Part shown: piece by piece, positions 1 to 13,052 of the stretch
Numbering within the stretch: position 1 is the first letter of the stretch
How the letters are laid out: each line of letters begins with the position of its first letter
DNA from: Lucinisca nassula
Taxonomy: Eukaryota > Mollusca > Bivalvia > Lucinida > Lucinidae
DNA: 64,000 nt
Reading direction: 5' to 3'
Assembly: GCA_963580285.1 (NCBI GenBank)
Contig: OY757021.1
Span: forward strand, 94,785,221 to 94,849,220
Made by a program: the position numbers and the translations under genes
Notes under the pieces: model-generated
Told to the model about the DNA's origin: nothing
Databases searched by the model: none
What the model saw: the letters and a program-made list of their open reading frames with translations, nothing else

Positions 1-75
1 GTCTTTAAACCGAGGTCCCGTCTCCAAATGACCTTAGCTGTTGGTGGGACGTAAAACGCAAACACTCACCCACCC
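1..75 (+). repeat. 3' end of a tRNA-headed SINE
   Basis: The segment gives the body and tail of the SINE that is complete at 27744-27905: accgaggtcccgtct, then gaccttagctgttggtggg, then acgtaaaacgcaaacactcac. The tRNA head lies outside the window. A reversed fragment of the same tail is at 36431-36485. Confidence 0.75.
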
Positions 76-319
76 ATGATATGGTTCATGCTGCTGTGAT
101 GTTTCTTGAAAATATTCCGTAGGGTTTATGAGTTTTGGCGCCCAGGTCGCGAACAAAGGCCATCAGCAATACCGTAAAACTCCTAAGATTTTGGACACCA
201 GAAAATGCCCTTATGCTATTCCTTGTAGGGGCATAATCACCTGTTGCTTTCTAGTACAACCAAGCAGAAGTATTTTTAACAACAGTTTTGTGTTAGCATT
301 GTTTGAAATACTTCTGCTG

Positions 320-495
320 ATTCAAGAAAGGCAGTTGTCAATTTGTGGCGAAAGAATGCACTGTACTGGTTGACAGCTTACGTATAAGCCTGCCCCTGAA
401 AAGTGTGGATAGGTAAACTGACCGGCTCAAAAATGACCTAAAATAGTGTTGACTGAGCCATTAAACTCCAGTACAAACAAACAAACAAACAAGTT
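320..495 (+). repeat. 3' half of a tRNA-headed SINE
   Basis: It matches, in the opposite orientation, the body of the SINE at 12305-12612: gattcaagaaaggcagttgtc, gcgaaagaatgca, a gcctgcccctg block, then gtgttgactgagccattaaac and a (caaa)n tail. No A or B box remains, so this is a 5'-truncated copy. Confidence 0.7.
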
Positions 496-539
496 ACCAC
501 TGAATTGCATTTATTTTCAACTTTGCAGTAGGATAAAAA

Positions 540-800
540 TGAATGCAATACTGTTGTATCTGTTGAGTTACCGCAGTCTTGCATTCAAGTTTCTTGCTGG
601 AAAGGCAAACATAAAAATGCAATACAGTTGTATGTAGAGTTACTGCAGTGTTGCATTATCTGAAAAGAACTATATGTGAATGCAATACTGTTGTATCTAG
701 AGTTACTGCAGTGTTGCAAAAAATAAAAAATAGAAAAATAAAAAATAAATAAATGCAATAGTGTTGTATCTACAGATACTGCAGTATTGCATTCCGAAAT
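540..800. repeat. Four tandem copies of a small imperfect hairpin
   Basis: A unit of about 70 bases recurs near 545, 607, 683 and 754. Each starts tgcaatactgttgtatc and ends ctgcagtgttgca. The two ends are imperfect inverted complements, so every unit can fold back. A fifth half-unit (gagttactgcagtcttgc) lies at 938-958. No protein is supported here. Confidence 0.6.
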
Positions 801-2177
801 ACTGGTCGTTGAGATACAACTTTTTTTCAATTTCAAATATCTTGAAAATGGTTTATCAAAGGACCACAAGATTTTTACAGGATGTGTATGATTAACAATT
901 ATTTTCATTTCTGCAAAAAACTCATTTTCACCAAAACACGGAGTTACTGCAGTCTTGCGCTGAGGGGACGACATGTGGAGACTGATTGTCAGCTACATAA
1001 AGACAGACGGGACACTTTTCTCAAGACACAAGCTGCAAGGGAAGCCACAGTTCAAGATTGGAGACACTGAAATAAACTACAACAGTACTCCCAAGATTCT
1101 CGGAATCACCCTAGATGAGCAGCTGAACTTCGATGCCCATACACAAATCATGACTAAGAAAACCAGCAATGCATTGAAGATCATCAGGGAGGTGAAAGGA
1201 ATCGGGAAAGTATCCACAAGAAAACTGCTTCACTTGTATGTCTCCATGGTGCGTCCTATCATGCCGTATGGATCAGTTATCTGGCAGGGTAGCAAGTTCA
1301 CCAGCAGGCTATCAACCATACAGCGAAAGGCACTATGTTTATGCCTTGGGTTGCCCGGGACCGCTGGAACAGAAGCTGTGGAAGTAGCATCAGGCATACC
1401 TCCCCTGGACTTGCACTTTAGACAGACAAGCATACGAGAACTAGCTAGCATACAAGCTAAATCAACAAGACAGCCCATAAAGATGCTGCTAAACAGCATG
1501 ACAGAAAACGACAACTCCCAAAGCACAGTGCAACTCATTACCTCACCACTCAGACTGGCTCTTACATACGCCAGTGAGATAAAAAAGGAGACAGGAGTCA
1601 ATATCCAGCTCATGGAGGAGGAACCTGAGTATGAAGAGGGAAACATAGGAATGACAGCCAGCGCCCCGCAATATTGAGGTAGGTTAGGCTCATCCAAGAC
1701 TCGCACAAGCGACCAACAGGAGCAAGGAAAAGAACTTCTACTGGACTTTATGATGGAATCCCCAGAAGGAACAACTTTTGCCTTCACAGATGGTAGCTGC
1801 CTCACAAATCCAGGCCCATGTGGGGCAGTTATCTTCGATGACCATCTACAGCCAGTACGTCTGAAAAGACCAGTGACCAGAAGAGGATCAATATTGCTGG
1901 GTGAACTGGTTGCAGTCCTCATTACCCTTGAATATATGGTACAACAACTGACAACCACCACAAGCAGCCTTCTAAAGACTTCAGCGACAGCCAGTCCACA
2001 GTCGGTATTCTCACCCTGAACTGGAAGGACACCAGTTACAGATCTGTTACCAGAGACATCAGAACTGCTATTGATATTCTGCAGCAAGCTGGTACACAAG
2101 GGTAGAAATCAACTGGGCCCCAGGACACAACTCTATAGCTGGAAAGGAGGAGGCGGACCAGGCAATTTTCTACTATT

Positions 2178-2516
2178 CCTCAGGGGCCGAAAAAGTGCCC
2201 CATTCCCAAATGAAAATAGCTTTTATTTTTCCCAATTTAATTAAAAAATTCCCAAATTGATGAGAGAAAAAAATCAACACAAAGAAACATCTTCTGAGAC
2301 ACTGCATTGCTAACTGAAACTTCAAACAGTCATTTCTGAAACATTAGACCAGTAAACAGTCACAGAAGAAAGATATGGTTGCTTGAATGAAGCAGTAATT
2401 CTTGTTCCCAAGTTCACCACTTTTGTCTGTAATTTCCCAAATTTAATAATTTTCTTGCTATTTTCCTCAATTTAAGTCCGGGGCCTTTTCCCAAAATACC
2501 TGGATAAAGCCCTGCG
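2178..2516. mobile_element. Possible small TIR element inside the LINE relic
   Basis: The LINE is interrupted by a segment beginning caggggccgaaaaagtgccc and ending, on the other strand, cagggctttatccagg. CAGGG ends suggest a hAT-type miniature element. I see no convincing 8-bp duplication, so the call is weak. Confidence 0.35.
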
Positions 2517-2519
2517 GAC

Positions 2520-2790
2520 AGGCTTGTCCACTGACCGTTCCAAGGCGGCTCTTTTGTGGCAATTTATTTATGTTGTTGTTTGTTACTTACTGTGTGTATC
2601 ACTTGTGTCTTTTGGTTTTGGATGGCCATATGGCCATTTTGTGGGAAAGTAACTGTCCTTATGGCCTTCCTTTGTTTAGGTTTCCATTATGGTCTGGTCG
2701 CTTAATGTTTGTATTTCTTTCCCTTTGGTGTCTTTTATGGGTGGAGTAAGTTAATTGTATCAATTCCTGATCTTTGTTTTACTTCTACTT
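2520..2790 (+). repeat. Dispersed repeat shared with 22095-22265
   Basis: Words such as ggccattttgtgggaaagt and ccctttggtgtct recur as reverse complements at 22095-22265 in bora intron 1. It fills the rest of the gap in the LINE relic. No coding potential is supported. Confidence 0.5.
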
Positions 2791-3872
2791 TGCTAAGGAG
2801 GCTGCATAAGAGGCCAGTAACTTTCCAGAAGGAAGCGCATCAGCATCACCTGCTGACGTTTAAGTGGCAAGCCAAGCCCACTTAAAGACACTGTGGCAAC
2901 AACGATGGGACATGACAGATGTGGGGAGGGTCTTTCATCAGTACTGTCCATCAGTAGAGACCAAGAGACCCTTTGACCAGCCATCCAGAGAATCCTTTGG
3001 TATGATTCTACAGCTACAAACCGGCTATAGTCAACTCAATGATTACAAATCCAAGCTTGGGCAAACTCAAACCAACCTCTGCCAGTGTGGTCAAGTTGAG
3101 GACACAGATCACTTTCTATTACACTGTCCACTTCAAGAGACCCATCGAAAGATCATGGAGCGCAACCTTGGACAGAGACTCGGCTTATACCACCTAGACA
3201 TGCAGGAGCTGCTTGGATCCAGTGACAATGAGAACATTCCAGAATACAGAGACACCATCAGATGGGAGCTAGTTGAATACATCAGGGCCACAGGAAGATT
3301 CACCTTTGCCCCGGCGCCTCCCTCAAGTCCGTGACGGATATTCTGTCATCCATGAACATTACATTTGAGAACAGTTACCCTAGTGAAGAAGAATTACAAC
3401 AGAGATGCAGTACATTGGAGACCTTTGTGCCATAGAGGCCTTGAATAGCGGATAGGGGAACCAGACGCCACGCTGTCAATTTATCCGAAATTGCCAAAAT
3501 GAACCGGAAGTTCCGAAAATGATTTTTGTGGCCCGGAAACCTGAAAAAAAGTAAGATTGGGTTTGGCGGTAAACTATTAGAGCCGGAAACACAGGCTATA
3601 AGTCAGAAACCGATCGGCCAGAAAGTCTCGAAATGGACCACAATGTGTGAAAAAAAAAAAGGACCGAACGACACAAAATGCGAAAAAAAATCCACTGTGT
3701 GATTTTTTTCTCGCCCCTTGAATTTTGATGAGTCATCTTGCCAAAAAAATGCGAGAATATCGTGAAATTGCCCCAGAAAATGATACCTGCATTGAGGGAC
3801 AGGGCTTGAGATGTCACTTCATCTCAGTGTCGGGTAAAAGTCCACCAAAATTGGAAGCAAAGTCTCTAAAAT

Positions 3873-5477
3873 GGTCGGGTATAAAAGCCAAGGCCGCGCC
3901 GGGCCGGGCCTGCCAAAAATTTTATTTTTAGTCTCTAGGTACAAGTAAGATATATATTTTGGTGAATGTCGGATTAAATTGTTATAAATTAGATATGTTA
4001 TAACTACAAGTAGTTTCACTTATCTACATTGCTTATTTATCTTTTAATAACTGTTTTCCGAAACCCAGGGGTATAAAAGCCAAGGCGGCGAAAAGGTATT
4101 GGCAATTCCGAATTTCTTTCAAATTCATCGGTTAAATTACTTCTTTTTGGCCTTATGATATTTGAATTTGATTATACTTATTATGTGTTCGTGATTAAAT
4201 CATATATATTCACCAGAATCACCTTAATTGATCGAATTTCTTATTTTATTTTTGTTTCTATTTTTAGAATTACCTTATTACAGGAAACGACCGAAAAGGA
4301 CCGAAAAGGAGGGCACACAACGACCGAAATGATCCGAATCGAATGGCGACCCATGTTGTTAAGTGACATCAGACCGTTATCCCAGTGGACAAAGTTTGTA
4401 TATGCGACGTTGTTTCAATGATTGGTCAAGGACTCCAGGGTTTTACGACGTTGATTCGATGTCGTTAAAACGACACTGGGATACTTTGTAAGGGAAATAA
4501 ACAATCTTGTCCACCAAACTTTTTTTCTAGAAAAAAAGTTTCATAAAAAATGTTCCCAGCAGGCACTCCACGTTGAATCAAGGTTTAAACAACGTTGTGT
4601 GCCTGCATGGTTCTGTTTACTTTTTTACTGCCAGTAGGAGCTCTGTACTGACTGATGTTCAGGAGGACGCGGGTTCGATACCTGCTGAGGTCGGCAGCCT
4701 TCTTTCGTGGAGATTGAACATGAAATATTTTCTTCAGTCATTCACTCCCTTCCACTGATTCAAGAAGGGCAGTGGTCAGTTTTTTGCGAAAGAATGTGCA
4801 CACTCATTTATAAGGAAACAATGGACCAGGACAACTCGTTCTAATTTTTAATTTCTACATCCATCACACATCCACAGTAAGCTGTCTGAATGAAGCATAT
4901 TAATAAGCAATAATAATACAATAGGTAAGTATCAAAACATAATTAATGTCTAAAACATGATTAAGAAATGTGATGAGTTTCATAAAGCTCTATCTTTAGT
5001 TCCTACCATTCAGATAGTATATTTAAATGCCCTTATCATTTATCTGACATTGCCATCCGTTGCGGTTCATTACGACGTGGCGTACATAAAACCACCAAAA
5101 TACAATTATTACAGATACTAAAGGGAATTGACTGGAATTATAACAATAAAAGGTTTAGAAAAATTTTTTTGGGGGTTGTCATGTACATTTTTTCACACAT
5201 CCATGTCTATTTCATTCAAATTCGATCAAAACATACGATAAAAACCGCCTTGGCTTTTATACCCCTAAAAAATTGCAAAATTGCAATAAAACAAAAATTA
5301 GGGCACCAAAAAGAACAAAAACTATGCTGAGTATCACATTTGATATAATTAACATTATCATATTATAATTTACCACTAACATTTCTTCTTCGGTTAGAAT
5401 TCCAAAAAATAAAATCTTCGAATCGGCAATTTTTGGCTCGGCCCAGCCCGGCGCGGCCTTGGCTTTTATACCCGACC
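3873..5477. mobile_element. 1.6 kb TIR element with perfect 9-bp target duplication
   Basis: The left end reads GGTCGGGTATAAAAGCC and the right end is its reverse complement. The inverted match continues imperfectly for about 50 bases through a GC-rich ccgcgccgggc block into an AT-rich stretch. Both sides are flanked by ctctaaaat (3864-3872 and 5478-5486), inside a SINE whose intact sequence is known from other copies, so the borders are secure. A second inner inverted pair (gggtataaaagccaaggcgg near 4069 and its complement near 5249) lies within. Nothing encodes a transposase. Nine-base duplications are typical of Mutator-like elements, so non-autonomous MULE is the best guess. Confidence 0.85.
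4620..4800 (+). repeat. Degraded tRNA-headed SINE inside the 1.6 kb element
   Basis: A B-box-like gcgggttcgatacc follows a decayed A-box region. Then come gtcggcagccttctttcgtgg, tgattcaagaagggcagtgg and gcgaaagaatgtg, as in the copy at 12305-12612. The tail is lost. Confidence 0.65.
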
Positions 5478-5535
5478 CTCTAAAATGACCTATACAGTGT
5501 TTACGGGGACGTTAAACCTCAAATCAAACAAAATT

Positions 5536-6265
5536 TAATACAGAACTACAGAGGCCGAATATTGTTGGGGCGAAACAAATTGCAGATTCAAAACGAATAA
5601 AAAGTCATCTTCAATCATTTTCAAATCTGATACTGACGTTAATATTGAGCCAGATTATTTACTCTGTAAGATTTCAATTTCTAGATAGGGAAATATTTCA
5701 TGCAGCCTCACTTTCCATCGTTTCTTTCGCCGAGGACGCTTTTTGTTTTCCACCGTCGGCCATTTTCCTTTCTTTGATGCACAACTGCTGATTTTAATAA
5801 AATAAAATAATAAGATAATTAAAGCATATAAAATTACTTTTTGAAGTCATATGCTTAAATGAAAAATTTCTAACATTATATATGTGTCATTATAGTTTGA
5901 AAATATGTATCTAATTTTTTTTATTCGCTCTTTTACAAAAATAATTTTGAGGCGGACATTATGCTAAGTAGGGGAAGCCAAAGCGATTGGACAAACTTCG
6001 AAGCGGGCATTCAAATAGTCTAAGAAAATAAACAAGTCTAGACACATTGTTGCTTTCAAAGCTCATGTAAACTCTTCAATGACTTTTAAATCATTGAGTT
6101 TTAATGGTCAACTAAGGCAGTAAATAACAACAGACTGGTAGAAAAAGTAAGAAAAGATGAAGAAAACTGAAATATAAAAAAGAAGAAAAAATAATAGAAA
6201 AAAGACAGGCAAGGTATTCCACCCCATCCAGTGACTATTCTATTCTTTTTTTTTTTTCAGCTATT
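5536..6265. other. AT-rich stretch with nothing recognised
   Basis: Low-complexity AT-rich DNA ending in poly-T at about 6245-6275. I see no exon, RNA gene or repeat border here. Confidence 0.5.
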
Positions 6266-7182
6266 TTTTTTTTCAGCTTAGTTTAGCCACCCAATCAACT
6301 GAGATAATGGGGTCTCACTATAAAGCGACAAGAAGCGTCAAGAAGCGACTAGAAGCGTCAAGAAGCGACAAGAAGCGTCATGATCATATTCCATTCGAAA
6401 TATACATTCCTATATTAGATTTTTTATGAATTCATAAATAAATTAAGTATTTCAAAGGATCAGGTTTGAATAGTTCCAGAAATATTGCATTTTCTTGTGT
6501 AAAATAAAAAATAAAAATCGCGTGCGTAACCACGTTCGGTTGAGAAAAAGCGACAAGAAAATGTTGTGACTGACAAAGAGTAAATGTCATATATAAGTCT
6601 TGTTTTTCTCGAATTGAAGTCATATATATTTATGTCTCTTATATGCAATATGTATTAAAGGCATTGAAATATGTAGAAGACTAACATGATGCAAGAAGAA
6701 AGGCAAACCGCACAAGCATCTTGAGTGGTGAAAAAGCGACATGAAGAAATTACGGTGCGATTTGAGTGCTAGAAAAAGCGACAAGAAGATTTTTCACAGT
6801 TGAAGCGATAACAAGAAGCGTCATGAAGTGTATGGAACATATTATGGTATGCATTTTATGCATAAAATCCGTAGTAGACGCACCATGGGGTACGAAAGCA
6901 TGCAAACCGCCCGATAAAATAAGTTCTGAATAAGCGACACGAAACTTCATGAGTCCATGAAAAAGCGACAAGAAGGTTAAATGGCGACTACACAAAGATG
7001 AAGAACCATCAAAATCATATATCCATTTCAGGCATTAAATTGCAAAGTAGATAATCAGCTGGTAAGAAAAAAAATGAAAAAAAAAAAAAAAAAAAACGCA
7101 CAATAACGTCGAGAGCTGAAACACGGTCCCCGAGCTAAAAAGGCGACAAGCATCACGAAAACACGCCTATATAATTTTGACC

Positions 7183-7352
7183 TGAGCCTCGCTCGGCTCA
7201 CATGTGAGACGCTAAGTTCTGCAACGGACAGGGCTTGAGATGTCATTTCATCTCAATCTCGGGTAAAAATCCCACAAAATTGGAAGCAACGTCTCCAAAA
7301 TGACCTATACAGTGTTGACGGGGACGTTAAACCTCAAATCAAACAAACAAAA
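7183..7352 (+). repeat. Chimeric SINE fragment
   Basis: Bases 7183-7225 match the body next to the tRNA head of the SINE at 15203-15430 (gagcctcgctcggctcac, gtgagacgct, agttctgcaacgg). They run straight into the family-A SINE body at 7226 (acagggcttgagatgtcat) and its gacgttaaacctcaaatc tail. A piece of the cacgaaaacacgcctata TIR element sits just before it at about 7155-7178. Confidence 0.65.
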
Positions 7353-8194
7353 CCCACAACAAATCTTTTTAGGAAAAAAAAGAAAGAAATATCTCAAATT
7401 AGTGCACTTATTTGTTACTATATAAGAAAGAGAAAAAAGAGAGGAACGAAAGAAAGAAATAAAGAAAATGAAAATAAAGGAAGGAAAAGAAAGAAATTGG
7501 CGGTGCCATGAAGAAATACACGCTAATTGATTTTATCAGTTTCATAGCCCGCAAGCCATTGAGTAATTCAACTTAAATTACTCAAACTGAGTAAAAGTAA
7601 TTAACGATTTCGGCCGTGATATATTTTCGGGTCAGTATAAAACGCAGCACTTTAGTGCAGCTATATTAAAAATATAGGAAAATGCAGCCAATAAGGAAAT
7701 CATAGGTAATGCAGCTATTATAGAAAACAGTATAAAATGCAGCTGCATATGCAGCCAATATTTAATATATAGTGTAGAATTCACTTTTCGCTTTTCAGTT
7801 AAAATTATCTTATATTTTCATACATCTGCTCAAAACATAGATTGTGAGAACCGCCTCGGCGAGGCTGTTCTAACCAGTACCCACAATCTATGTTTTACCC
7901 ACAATCTATGTTTTTGAGCAGAAATATGAAGACTAATGTACACATCTGAAAACCATTTTAGCTATATAAATGTTGGGTTTAATGGGATCAAAATTAAATA
8001 GACATGTTCTTGTTATGTCTTGATGAACCTGGGACTCTCCATCTTTGTGTTGTTTGAATAAAGATCGCGGTTTAAACTGATGCCTAAGCCCCAGTTTATA
8101 TTGAGAAAACGGGGGTTTAGTGTAGGGATATAATATTATTTTTCTTATATCTGCTCCTAGACATAGGTTGTGAGTCCTTAATAGAACCGCCTCA

Positions 8195-8495
8195 ATGGTA
8201 TGTTTGTTTGTTAATGTTTGTTTAATTTGAGGTTTAACGTCCCCATCAACACTGTATAGGTCATTTTGGAGACATTGCTTCCAATTTTGTGGGACTTTTA
8301 TCCGACTCTGAGATGAAATATGACATCCCAAGCCCTGCCGCCCAATGAAACCAATAGGGATGTGCTGCTTTGCCTGGACAGGCTTACACGTAGATCCACT
8401 AAGTGGTTTACCAGTACTCCGGTTTCATATCTGCGTGGAAACATCATGCAGCCGATCTATTTCTTCAAGCACTGTTGAGCGGGGGTCGAGCGTAA
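8195..8495 (-). repeat. Family-A SINE, left arm of foldback
   Basis: Reverse copy: tail taatttgaggtttaacgtcc, body block gtgggacttttatccgac, and 5' end near ttgagcgggggtcgag. Its mirror at 11955-12245 lies at the matching place in the other arm, so the arms were duplicated after this SINE inserted. Confidence 0.8.
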
Positions 8496-9419
8496 CGGTA
8501 TATAACGTCAAACAAGAATGCTCTCAAACTGGACGTATCTTGGCAATAAGAATAAGAAATAGAAAAGAACAAAATAAAGAGAACATATCAACTTCATTTT
8601 TAGCTTGTAAATACAAAAATGCATAATATGAGAAAACATATGGAAAAAACCTAACAGTTACATTTGAGCAATCACACAAGATTATATCCTCTAAGCGGTT
8701 GTCAGTACTCGTTTGCGGCCGGTTTCAGCTCTGCGTGGATACATCATGCAGCCCCATCTATTTCTTCAAGCCCCAATTATATAAATCCATGTACCAGAAA
8801 CCCCAAAACGGGTATTTGGCAAACAATATAGGCCCAGATCAGATGCCGCAGAACATGGCCTCTGATCAGGTCTTACATTGTTTGCAAAAAGGAAAGGCCC
8901 ATCACGTGAACAAGTCTGTGAAATATAGACCCCACTAAACCCCATTTTATATAGAGAAAACTGGGGTTTATGGGGTATACATTATTTGCCTTACTTCTGC
9001 TCCAATACATAGGTTGTGAGTACGCGTTAGAACCGCCTCAATGAGGCAGTTCGAATGAGCACCCAAAACCTATGTTTGGAGTTTAAATAAGAAAATTATC
9101 ACAAATTTTCATCAGAAAAATTACCTTTTTTGAGGTTCAAACATTGCACTATATCACACGGATGTTTTCTCGTAATGCATTTTTCTAATAAATTTTGAAG
9201 AAAACACAACCTGACACCCCTGAATTTTGACATGTACTCTTGCTATATATAAGAAGTAAGATTCCATTTGGTACCAGAAGGGTTAAAGTTGTAAATACAA
9301 TATATACAAATATACATGTATAATTTGAGTTAATTTGTATCTCTCAATGCATTGGTCAGTTATAAATTTATTCTGGATTCTTCAACATTCCAAAACCTCT
9401 TGGTTATGAGCAGTTTACT

Positions 9420-9690
9420 GTTCACACACATCCCTAAAGGTGTGAAAAACAGAAGTTTACCTGTACTAATCTGTGTTATGTTTTAACAAGATCACTACTG
9501 TTCACACACATCCCTAAAGGTGTGAAAAACAGAAGTTTACCTGTAGTAATCTGTGTGATGTTTTAACAAGATCGCTGAATAGAGAGTTTTAATAATTTGG
9601 TAATGTGCAGCTCGATTTTCTTCAGATATTTAAGAAGATAATTGGTAATGTGCAGCTCGATTTTCTTCAGATATTTAAGAAGATAATTTT
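9420..9690. repeat. Two adjacent direct duplications in the foldback loop
   Basis: A 76-base unit (gttcacacacatccctaaagg to about gatcactact) occurs twice at about 9420-9570. A 47-base unit (ggtaatgtgcagctcgattt) occurs twice at 9598-9690. The copies are nearly identical, so both duplications look recent. Confidence 0.8.
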
Positions 9691-9927
9691 GGAAAAATTG
9701 AATATGATGTAAAGCAGCATTACGTCCATTCTGTAATCATTAATGTGATTTTTATTGCCTATAATTAATAATGAAAATAGAAATGCAAGATAACATGAGA
9801 ATCAGGAAAGTTAAAGACAAGAGAGAATTACTAAATACCTTCTAGCAAGAATAAAAAAAAAAAGGCACAATACTGATAGACTACGAATTTAAATCAATCT
9901 TGCCAAAAATATTTTATTCACCAATTC

Positions 9928-10077
9928 CATTATTAGGACCACCCCGCTAATAAGACCACTTTTTTAGAAGTCTGGAAAGTGGTCTTAATAGTGGAATTAT
10001 TAGGACCACTCCGCTAATAAGACCACTTTTTAGAAGTCTGGAAAGTGGTCTTAATAGTGGAATTGCACTGTACTTCG
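9928..10077. repeat. Tandem pair of foldback units (AAGACCAC family)
   Basis: Two copies of a unit of about 70 bases, each with aataagaccactttt and its inverted partner gaaagtggtcttaa, end in a cactgta border. The same hairpin family occurs at 31052-31237 and 40396-40512. Confidence 0.65.
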
Positions 10078-10250
10078 GATGAAAATTTCTGATATTTTTT
10101 CATATATCTGCTCAAACATAGATTGTGGAAACTCGCTAGAATCGCCTCGGCAAGTTTGTTCTAATGAGTACCCACAATCTTTGTTTTTTATCTGAAATAA
10201 GAAAAATAATGAATACGTCTGTAAACCCTGAAAGTCAATGCGCGGAAACA

Positions 10251-11172
10251 CTAAGATTTAGTTTTGCATGCCTTGCACAGGAATTTAACATTTGACATAG
10301 ATATATCAAATGGTGCTTTTACAAAGAATTTGTGTAACCAATTTTCGCATCTGTCACACTGAACCATATCATCAAAACATTCTGGTAAATTGCATATACA
10401 ATAATTCTGAATTTTGATTATTTTGTCTTTCTTCTTCCTTCGCCGTCTTATCGTTTTAGATGTAAGCGGAAATTCTGAAATTTTGTTATTTTCATTGTAA
10501 AAGATGGGTCCTTAGTTTATTTGAATCAAATATCAGCTCAAAGCATAATTTCTGTCTAAAACAAAATAAGTTACAAATGCTATGGCTTACCGGCCCCGAT
10601 AGATCAGTTGGTAGAGTGTCCGCTCCGGGGAACGGGAGGTCTCGGGTTCGATCCCGGGCCGCGACATACCAAAGTCGTTAAAAATGGTACTAGCTGCTCC
10701 TCGTTTGGCACTCAGATTTACGGGGTAGAGCTAGGACTGGTCGATCCAGTGTCAGGATAATGTGACTGGGTGTGGTATCATGTAATGTGTCTGGGGCATG
10801 ATACTTCAGTGAGGCAGCACTATAAACGTGAGCATCGAGCTCCCTGTCGCAACCAGACACCGTCGTGATATGACTGAAAAATTGTTGAAAGCGACGTTAA
10901 ACCCGAATTCACACACACACACACACACAAATGCTATGGCATACAGCCCACAGTCAACGCTATTATTTTGCTTCATTACTTCATTACTGAAATTTCATTT
11001 TTTCCCGGCCATAAATTTGAGAAAGCTGGATTTTTAAACCATCTGGTATTATACGTTCATCCTTTCGTTCCGACCCTAAACTATCTAGTAAATAAATATT
11101 GCCCCTTTGATAAATTGTGGCTACCCAATGATCATTATGTATATGGTGAACTTGACAGGCTGGTGAAACCAC
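10251..11172 (-). pseudogene. Broken Ulp1-type cysteine protease with C-terminal PHD-like finger
   Basis: Read on the - strand, 11172-10984 gives N-D-H-W-V-A-T-I-Y and N-I-Y-L-L-D-S-L-G-S, the His and Asp blocks of C48 (Ulp1/SENP-type) peptidases. Around 10975-10930 comes Q-N-N-S-V-D-C-G-L-Y-A-I-A-F, with the oxyanion Gln and the catalytic Cys. All four active-site positions are thus recognisable. An 8-base tandem duplication (gtaatgaa twice) throws the frame between the Asp and Cys blocks. A SINE at 10587-10926 then cuts the gene just after A-I-A-F. Beyond it, 10450-10251 gives a basic R-R-R-R-K-K-K-D-K stretch and a PHD-like finger: C-I-C, M-V-Q-C-D-R-C-E-N-W-L-H-K-F-F, F-L-C-K-A-C, then a stop at 10251. 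The Cys expected after the His is Phe. Ulp1 domains are carried by some plant MULEs. Here the gene is dead and lies in a foldback loop, so a transposon accessory protein is the likely origin; the substrate is unknown. Confidence 0.8.
10587..10926 (+). mobile_element. Complete tRNA-headed SINE with 14-bp target duplication
   Basis: The A box is within tagatcagttggtagagtg and the B box is gggttcgatcccg. A 210-base body follows, with the tail gcgacgttaaacccgaattc and an (ac)n end. The target duplication acaaatgctatggc is at 10573-10586 and 10927-10940. It interrupts the protease relic within its A-I-A-F codons. Confidence 0.93.
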
Positions 11173-11954
11173 TGGGTCTATTTACTTAACTCTAAATATG
11201 CATGTATATTTGTATATATTGTATTTACAACTTTAACCCTTCTGGTACCAAATGGAATCTTACTTCTTATATATAGCAAGAGTACATTTCAAAATTCAGG
11301 GGTGTCAGGTTGTGTTGTCTTCAAAATTTATTAGAAAAATGCATTACGAGAAAACATCCGTGTGACATAGTGCAATTTTCAAACCTCAAAAACGTAATTT
11401 TTCTGATGAAAATTTGTGATAATTTTCTTATTTATACTCCAAACATAGGTTTTGTGTGCTCGTTAGAACTGCCTCGTTGAGGCGGTTCTAACGCGTACCC
11501 ACAACCTAAGTCTTGGAGCAGAAGTAAGGCAAATAATGTATACCCCCATAAACCCCAGTTTTCTCTATATAAAGTGGGGTTTAGGGGGGGGGGGGTCTAT
11601 ACTTGTTCACGTGATGGGCCTTTCCTTTTTGCAAACAGTGTATGCCCTAATCAGAGGCCATGTTCTGCGGCATCCGATTGGGGCCTGAAGAAATAGTTGG
11701 GGCTGCATGATCCATCCGCGCAGAGCTGAAACCGGCCGCAAACGAGTACTGCGTCCGCTTAGAGGATATAATCTTGTGTGATTGCTCAAATGTAACTGTT
11801 AGGCTGTTTTCCATATGTTTTCTCATATTATACATTTTTGTATTTACAAGCTAAAAATGAAGTTAATATGTTCTCTTTATTTTGTTCTTTTCTATGTCTT
11901 ATTCATATTGCCAAGATACGTCCAGTTTGAGAGCATTCTTGTTTGACGTTATAT

Positions 11955-12245
11955 ACCGTTACGCTCGACCCCCGCCCAACAGGGCTTGAAGAAATAGATC
12001 GGCTGCATGATGTTTCCACGCAGAGATGAAACCGGAGTTCTGGTAAACCACTTAGAGGATCTAAGCCTGTCCAGTCAAAGCAGTGCTTATAAACCCTATT
12101 GGTTTCATTGGGCGGCAGGGCTTGGGATGTCATATTTCATCTCAATGTCGGATAAAAGTCCCACAAAATTGGAAGCAACGTCTCCAAAGTGACATATACA
12201 GTGTTGATGGGGACGTTAAACCTCAAATTAAACAAACATAAACAA
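11955..12245 (+). repeat. Family-A SINE, right arm of foldback
   Basis: It starts near cgacccccgcccaac, then cttgaagaaatagatcggc, cctattggtttcattggg, gtcccacaaaattggaagc and the tail ggggacgttaaacctcaaat. It mirrors 8195-8495. Confidence 0.85.
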
Positions 12246-12304
12246 ACATAGCATTACGATAACACACCCTTGCGACATAGTGCTTTTCTTCTTCTTAATA
12301 CTGT

Positions 12305-12612
12305 TTGTTTGTTTGTTTTGGAGTTTAACGGCCCAGTCAACACTATTTAGGTCATTTTTGAGCCGGTCAGTTTACCTATCCACACTTTCCTGGGCAGGCT
12401 TATACGTAAGCGGTTAACCAGTACAGTGCACATTCTTTCGCCAGAAACTGACAACTGCCCTTCTTGAATCAGCGGAAGGGAGAGAATGACCGTAGAAAAG
12501 ATTTCATGATCAATCTCCACGAAAGAATGTTGCCGACCCCGGCGGGAGTCGAACCCGCGTCCTCCTGATCACCAGTCAGACGCGCATCCGACTGAGCTAC
12601 CGAGGCCGGCTT
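12305..12612 (-). mobile_element. tRNA-headed SINE (complete)
   Basis: Reverse copy. The - strand starts gccggcctcggtagctcagtc (A box) with B box gggttcgactcccgcc. The body has gcgaaagaatgtgc, and the tail has gtgttgactgggccgttaaac and (caaa)n. It lies only in the right foldback arm, so it arrived after the arms formed. Confidence 0.88.
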
Positions 12613-13052
12613 CTTAATACTGCAAACAAAGGTTGTAGTGCTCGTAGGCGGTTCTATTGAGGACTCACAACCTATGTATAAGAGCATCCAGTGCCTCTCT
12701 CTCTCTCTCTTTTCCAGCTAAATTCTAAATTAAGCCACCCAATCAACTGAGGTAATGGCCAGATATGACCGACTCAGTATAAGAAGATTGTGGGTACTGG
12801 TTAGAACAGCCTCGCCGAGGCGGTTCTCACAATCTATGTTTTGAGCAGATGTATGAAAATATAAGATAATTTTAACTGAAAAGCGAAAAGTGAATTCTAC
12901 ACTATATATTAAATATTGGCTGCATATGCAGCTGCATTTTATAGTTTTCTATAATAGCTGCATTACCTATGATTTCCTTATTGGCTGCATTTTCCTATAT
13001 TTTTAATATAGCTGCACTAAAGTGCTGCGTTTTATACTGACCCTATATTTTC

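Follow-up and report, generated by a model that had tools for sequence, protein, structure and literature searches.

We describe a foldback transposon in the genome of the bivalve Lucinisca nassula. It occupies positions 7629–13043 of a 64,000-nucleotide stretch of contig C15 (G000:C15:94785221-94849220, hereafter the window), and all genome-wide searches reported here cover the 2.93 Gb assembly to which this stretch belongs. Very probably, the element is a dead, non-autonomous derivative of an animal Mutator-like (MULE) family with a MULE–Ulp1–PHD transposase, in which the ordinary right end has been swapped for an inverted left end. This assignment ties a repeat family with about 100 exact ends per orientation to a concrete multi-domain transposase, and it would make the Ulp1-type protease and the PHD finger parts of the transposase itself.

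Architecture of the Window Element

The element is bounded by perfect 9-bp target-site duplications, and both tips carry the same motif, GGGTCAGTATAAAACGC, facing inward. Arms of 1.7–1.9 kb (7629–9333 and 11186–13043) mirror each other, with gaps, around a central loop, which is the layout of a foldback element. The six longest ungapped arm blocks (I1–I6) are 90–98% complementary. An earlier note on this DNA, made from the letters of the stretch alone, had pointed out the duplications, the identical ends, the arms of about 1.7 kb and the foldback form, and on all four counts it was correct. The features of the element are as follows.

7620..7628, no strand: left target-site duplication, 9 bp, TATATTTTC
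7629..7779, + strand: left 151-bp terminal inverted repeat, common to the family
7629..9333, + strand: left arm, matching the region at the usual left end of family copies, which lies 3' of the transposase gene (left ends of copies L039, L009, L022 and L034; inverted repeats I1–I6)
10254..10409, − strand: PHD finger (Pfam PHD 4.9e-6; 87% identity over 52 aa to the PHD of the family)
10410..10590, − strand: remaining Ulp1 C-terminus and linker to the PHD finger
10587..10926, no strand: insert of 340 bp resembling a short interspersed nuclear element (SINE), tRNA-like head (by eye), inside the Ulp1 fragment, between 14-bp duplications ACAAATGCTATGGC that start at 10573 and 10927
10927..11182, − strand: Ulp1 (Peptidase C48) fragment, 5'-truncated, with H-W, D and Q..C blocks and indels
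11182..11186, no strand: foldback junction, where the gene fragment stops and the inverted arm starts
11186..13043, − strand: right arm, matching the left-end region again, inverted (L039 1429–1 reversed), where ordinary copies hold a different right end
12304..12609, − strand: SINE-like insert with tRNA-Thr head, confined to the right arm, between 13-bp duplications CTTCTTAATACTG that start at 12291 and 12610
12893..13043, − strand: right terminal inverted repeat
13044..13052, no strand: right target-site duplication, 9 bp, TATATTTTC, identical to the left one

The earlier note had also placed a Ulp1 protease–PHD gene in the loop. The minus strand does contain the H-W, D and Q..C blocks of Ulp1 and a PHD finger between 11182 and 10254, but these are the broken remains of a transposase tail rather than cargo carried by the foldback. 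The Ulp1 part aligns to residues ~68–195 of a 200-aa query, with the first third absent, and is interrupted by several indels, one stop and the 340-bp insert. The PHD finger passes the Pfam cut-off. The Ulp1 pieces alone do not: the 22-aa piece scores 0.0075, below the cut-off, and the 65-aa piece gives no match. We identify the protease in the window because copies of the same family pass Pfam. In L040, for example, C48 (2.4e-6) and PHD (6.1e-6) both exceed their cut-offs within a single frame, so that the fusion of protease and finger, which the earlier note had offered as one of two options, is found in this copy. The window copy is dead; its loop holds a broken fragment rather than a gene.

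A Family of Shared Ends

The exact tip GGGTCAGTATAAAACGC occurs 102 times in forward and 103 times in reverse orientation genome-wide, as opposed to 0 and 0 for a reversed-letter control. A 20-base version of the end, allowing up to two mismatches, was found 164 and 166 times (control: 1 and 0). From 100 listed ends among the 205 exact ones we obtained 32 facing pairs, which together with the window copy make up the set of 33 elements discussed below; one further facing pair, at C5:157414436, lies outside this set. Perfect 9-bp duplications flank 25 of the 33 elements, window included. L035 and L047 have perfect 8-bp duplications (by eye), and the other six have no perfect duplication. In most elements the terminal repeats measure ~130–152 bp and are 91–100% identical. 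They are longer in L031 and in the window copy, and short, shifted or undetected in L011, L013, L017, L020, L035 and L043. Long terminal repeats, and duplications that commonly measure 9 bp, are features of MULEs, and the family shows both. The idea that the whole family consists of long or composite foldback arms was dropped, because kilobase arms occur in the window copy alone (1 of 33); the next longest repeat, in L031, measures 329 bp.

Pieces of both Ulp1 and PHD are kept in seven of these elements (L009, L022, L036, L039, L040, L041 and the window copy), and PHD only in four (L017, L024, L026 and L034). The latter four begin at one same base (625) of the Ulp1–PHD reference and perhaps form a separate deletion subfamily.

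How closely Ulp1 loci are linked to the family ends was assessed on contigs C1–C6, where every exact end was listed. The genome search for Ulp1 scored 150 of 619 candidates, and its counts are lower bounds. Of the 12 scored Ulp1 loci with 78% identity or more, 11 have an exact family end within 5 kb. The twelfth, on C3, also terminates in the repeat of the family, the tip of which differs there by a single base. None of the 34 more distant Ulp1 places (50% identity or less) among the scored candidates lies within 10 kb of an exact end. The chance expectation for an exact end within 10 kb is ~0.17% per locus. The earlier note had named intact Ulp1–PHD genes lying always outside such ends as the outcome that would speak against it; the 12 loci do not show this outcome.

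Selection on the tail was assessed in 13 Ulp1–PHD copies. The ratio of nonsynonymous to synonymous changes (pN/pS) is 0.44 against the consensus and 0.47 pairwise. In simulations with the observed mutation spectrum, 35 silent changes compare with 25.3 expected (P 0.02; singletons P 0.054) and 5 stops with 7.8. Because the excess of silent changes is weak once the mutation spectrum is simulated, we do not claim selection maintaining a truncated Ulp1–PHD gene. Nor do the copies descend from one founder with a frameshift in the A-run, since the length of this run varies among them (6 in L040 and L051–L053; 7 in L039, L058 and L060; 8 in L036; 9 in L009; longer in L054; L055 unmatched).

The Transposase Gene of the Family

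The locus on C3 contains, on one strand and in this order, an N-terminal region, a MULE domain, a SWIM-like stretch, a linker, Ulp1 and PHD. The MULE domain scores over the cut-off (PF10551, 6.9e-8). The N-terminal region gives a weak WRKY match below the cut-off (0.008), and the SWIM-like stretch was recognised by eye, with no Pfam score. This copy belongs to the same family as L040, an element with family ends and a target-site duplication: the linkers are 96.2 and 98.4% identical and the 3' parts 97.5% over 2045 bp. The 3' terminal repeat of the C3 copy lies at ~13103359 (98% over 280 bp), 27 bp from C3:13103386 as reckoned via L040. The exact end search missed it because of the one changed tip base. 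The nine bases directly beyond the 3' end are CTCATCAGT. A second connection is provided by L025, which has the family ends on both sides and is flanked by a perfect duplication; in it a 134-bp MULE fragment (97% to C3) is joined to the family 3' region. The C3 copy with its 3' repeat and the L025 fragment place a MULE DDE domain within the family ends. Together with the 9-bp duplications and 151-bp repeats, the colinearity of this domain with Ulp1–PHD on C3 supports the MULE-like lineage that had been suspected from the window alone.

Genome-wide, PF10551 was matched at least 130 times, with 150 of 295 candidates scored, and the C3 MULE domain used as a query returned 124 matches. When the distinct MULE loci are ranked by score, 11 of the top 16 are followed downstream by Ulp1 on their own strand, ten of them at 1.1–1.8 kb and C3 at 3.9 kb. 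Five weaker MULE loci were added for their nearby Ulp1 (0.9–1.3 kb), and the total of 16 in 21 is therefore biased. Some of the loci seem to be almost identical duplicates of one another (C15, C20 and C638; C1:48.8 Mb and C3:68.9 Mb). Four loci hold MULE and Ulp1 in a single open frame, of 1404 aa on C18, 1668 aa on C15, 1080 aa on C20 and 1506 aa on C638. As far as sequence can tell, Ulp1–PHD is the C-terminus of a Mutator-type transposase and not cargo. Since it would be the transposase's own C-terminus, it does not qualify as a captured gene of the kind that defines Pack-TIR elements.

Two arrangements of these genes may be recorded here. At G000:C20:2096764-2101422, two Ulp1 matches of a related lineage diverge ~3.6 kb apart with one MULE between them (frames of 1080 and 617 aa), possibly as an inverted duplicate. 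At G000:C6:155057844-155089512, four MULE matches with 993-aa frames follow each other at ~10.5-kb spacing, two forward and then two reverse.

Relatives of the Transposase

Named matches to the Ulp1–PHD part came from Mercenaria mercenaria and Mactra antiquata, and those to the whole transposase from Ruditapes philippinarum, Mytilus edulis and Pinctada imbricata; most matches are nameless. With the ordered protein pieces of the C3 copy as a query we obtained 31 relatives, 17 of which were scanned with Pfam at E 0.05, a threshold at which several matches fall below the curated cut-offs. MULE, C48 and PHD were all detected in five of the 17 (P0023, P0028, P0029, P0030 and P0032). Four contain MULE and PHD without C48 (P0024, P0025, P0027 and P0033), three contain MULE and C48 without PHD (P0035, P0038 and P0047), and three contain MULE without either (P0022, P0036 and P0037). 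CG-1 exceeds its cut-off (4.7e-7) in P0023 only. This uncharacterized protein of Ruditapes philippinarum (LOC132759787) has a predicted length of 1177 aa, with CG-1, MULE, C48 and PHD over cut-off, a weak SWIM match and its catalytic residues kept. It is 51% identical to the C3 query over 66% of the query, and is known here from the protein alone. Predicted unbroken relatives are found in Ruditapes and Mytilus; such clam and mussel proteins would make the role of a SUMO/ubiquitin-type protease in transposases testable in animals.

Residue conservation was examined in an alignment (A2) of 15 of the 31 relatives and six Ulp1-only proteins from the Ulp1–PHD search. The D, D and E of the MULE core are kept in all 15 aligned MULE proteins, and H-D-Q-C of the protease in all 11 transposases with a complete Ulp1 region as well as in the six Ulp1-only proteins. 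The Trp before the W/F-H-x-x-C block of the PHD finger is present in eight of the 11 transposases with a complete Ulp1 region, with Ser in P0024 and P0026 and Arg in P0028.

Some relatives are unusual in other ways. P0041 (1015 aa) and P0042 (733 aa), both MULE-type proteins of this lineage, carry a Macro domain (1.4e-33 and 9.3e-31, respectively). In P0041 it is accompanied by C48 and PHD, while the MULE core gives no Pfam match; the MULE match of P0042 is weak (0.029). A transposase uniting ADP-ribose, SUMO/ubiquitin and histone modules would be striking. P0028, with MULE, C48 and PHD, is filed as a Ulp1 family isopeptidase of the bacterial symbiont Candidatus Thiodiazotropha taylori, and is perhaps host DNA contaminating a bacterial bin.

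Origin of the Foldback

Comparison with L039 reveals how the window copy is put together. Element bases 1–3554 run from the left end into the gene just as in an ordinary copy, and bases 3558–5415 correspond to the left end again, inverted. Directly inward of the 151-bp repeat, both ends of the window element are of the left type: they are 97–98% identical to left ends and 37–51% to right ends in all four copies compared (L039, L034, L009 and L022). Since both ends are left-type, the right end and the 5' part of the gene must have been replaced. Judged by these alignments, an inverted copy of the left end took the place of the right end and cut the protease short. The window copy would then be a clear case of a foldback formed by swapping one MULE end for the other, inverted.

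The two arms are not equally similar throughout. Their outer 257 aligned positions are identical save for a 2-bp indel, and the inner blocks are 95.2% (566 positions) and 93.0% (500 positions) identical. A later process, for example gene conversion, probably made the outer ends alike. As to the event itself, the loss of the ordinary right end and of the 5' part of the gene and the insertion of the inverted left end would most likely be due to template switching during break repair, a route that we favour by analogy with animal Pack-TIRs (PMC8277862). Inspection of the foldback junction by eye revealed no clear microhomology.

Weighing the Interpretation

The arms could instead stem from recombination between two different family copies rather than from an inverted duplication within one. 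The arms are 94.2% alike over 787 positions, and other copies reach up to 95.5% identity to the left arm and 93.6% to the right, a similar distance. The two arms nevertheless group together in a tree built from 24 sequences (the arms plus 22 of the 32 other elements, the remainder matching partly or not at all), and they share four private sites. We regard an origin from two copies as possible, though clearly the less likely one. It is far harder to believe that the mirrored arms are an assembly error. True, kilobase arms occur in one of 33 elements only, and the assembly was judged without reads; yet the arms differ by 5–7% inside, the right arm has an insert of its own with a 13-bp duplication, and the target-site duplications of the window element are perfect. 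We therefore put the chance of an artefact very low.

Almost as improbable to us is that Ulp1–PHD is host or foreign cargo, caught by a foldback or Pack-type element with an unrelated transposase. Such capture would fit the observation that a MULE fragment survives in one of 33 elements (L025), as against Ulp1 and PHD pieces in seven and PHD alone in four. It does not fit the C3 locus, where the parts from MULE through SWIM-like stretch and linker to Ulp1 and PHD are colinear and terminate in the family repeat, nor the recurrence of this domain order elsewhere in the genome and within individual proteins predicted for other bivalves.

Several observations weigh against a MULE derivative with an exchanged end. 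The C3 copy is itself broken: its frame is disrupted, and it is interrupted by one insert that is SINE-like and another that holds a Penelope-like reverse transcriptase (by eye). It is joined to the family at its 3' end, and its far repeat and duplication lie beyond the sequence read. L025 is the only one of the 33 elements with a MULE remnant. The earlier note had proposed a check for intact copies with the same ends and a MULE transposase; the C3 repeat and the L025 fragment answer this in part, but among the copies examined we saw no intact autonomous MULE gene within both exact ends. Five of the 16 top MULE loci have no partner among the scored Ulp1 places, and P0023 is the sole relative among the 17 scanned that passes the curated cut-offs for MULE, C48 and PHD together. 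The history of the arms is complex as well, with outer ends identical and interiors 5–7% apart. The arms are sisters in the tree with a support of only 0.874, and their four common private sites compare with 14 and 22 confined to one arm. We still hold the window element to be, with high probability, a dead foldback derivative of a MULE family with a MULE–Ulp1–PHD transposase.

Relation to Known Elements

The earlier note knew of no animal element with this set-up. This claim is not supported, since Mutator transposons encoding Ulp1 have been published for hydra and lancelet (PMC2836005), and an animal MULE foldback, Tm1, for root-knot nematodes (PMC3169594). The legend of Figure 1e in the 2010 Ginger paper (PMC2836005) adds PHD, naming Ulp1 and PHD in Ginger1 and Mutator transposases, among which the animal Mutator elements may be. 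The combination is thus known in part. The hydra and lancelet elements share with the present family that they are animal Mutator transposons with Ulp1; compared by description only, they differ in their hosts, and the text available mentions no foldback copy (PMC2836005). Tm1 is likewise an animal MULE with 9-bp duplications and foldback-like composite ends of variable length, but has a 496-aa Phantom-type transposase with FLYWCH and MULE domains, for which the available text mentions neither Ulp1 nor PHD (PMC3169594). Rehavkus elements also have animal hosts, 9-bp duplications and a PHD finger in the transposase; by description, they differ in occurring in Arthropoda and Annelida, in a minisatellite, and in having no Ulp1 listed in the accessible portion (PMC6446971). 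A PHD finger and a 9-bp duplication are by themselves insufficient to assign the family to Rehavkus or to separate it from Rehavkus. The same 2019 MULE survey, in the part available, lists two Mollusca MULE groups without further motifs (PMC6446971). Mutator elements that carry a Ulp1-type protease, as this family does, are also cited for Arabidopsis, maize, rice and melon (PMC2836005); compared by description only, they differ in their plant hosts.

The DDE transposase of Ginger1-9_HM of hydra likewise has a C-terminus with Ulp1 and PHD (PMC2836005), which might suggest that our element belongs to Ginger1. However, Ginger1 elements have a Gypsy-integrase-type core, 4-bp duplications and TGTNR ends (same source), whereas the window family has a MULE domain, 9-bp duplications and GGGTC ends. 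Duplication length, ends and core domain all fail to fit, and we rejected this assignment as next to impossible. Our searches of the open-access literature found no description of the family or of the order CG-1, MULE, SWIM, Ulp1, PHD as such.

Proposed Mechanism and Possible Roles of the Tail

We propose that the full family gene encodes one transposase, which begins with a CG-1/WRKY-like region and continues through MULE DDE core, SWIM-like stretch and linker to Ulp1 and PHD. The DDE core would act on the 151-bp terminal repeats and make a cut staggered by 9 bp, as the family and its duplications suggest, and would move the element by cut and paste. The two-ended copies, some of which retain Ulp1–PHD, may be internal-deletion derivatives moved in trans; they share ends and duplications, and their genes are broken or missing. 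As for the tail, the PHD finger may keep the transposase bound to chromatin, and Ulp1 may free either chromatin proteins or the transposase of SUMO-like tags.

Against solved structures, the Ulp1 part has SENP7 as its sole match, and a weak one (0.011 with the profile and 0.052 with the single sequence). The best structural relatives of the PHD finger are those of CFP1, SHORT LIFE and EBS by profile, and those of Polycomb-like (Pcl), EBS and CFP1 by single sequence. PHF2, DIDO1, SPP1 and BPTF come next. Several of these fingers are readers of trimethylated lysine 4 on histone H3 (H3K4me3), and the conserved Trp bears on this binding. Because the Trp is absent in three of 11 relatives and Pcl is among the matches, H3K4me3 binding by the present finger is no more than tentative. 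The linker contains three putative SUMO-site-like IKEE/IKQE motifs (by eye), which the more distant relatives do not clearly share. One might imagine the tail as a built-in anti-silencing module, in which PHD docks to active chromatin and Ulp1 strips SUMO from silencing factors or from SUMO-site-like motifs in its own linker, with the Ulp1–PHD deletion copies supplying this activity in trans to the family. We consider such a module unlikely, the more so as three of 11 relatives lack the PHD Trp.

Two minor observations concern sequences inserted in or related to the family. By eye, L009 and L015 contain nested open frames of the long interspersed nuclear element type, of 1291 aa (element positions 2215–6087) and 1282 aa (3351–7196). 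Window positions 2527–2791 match, at 97%, the beginning of the insert that breaks the C3 transposase copy (L060 1035–1299).

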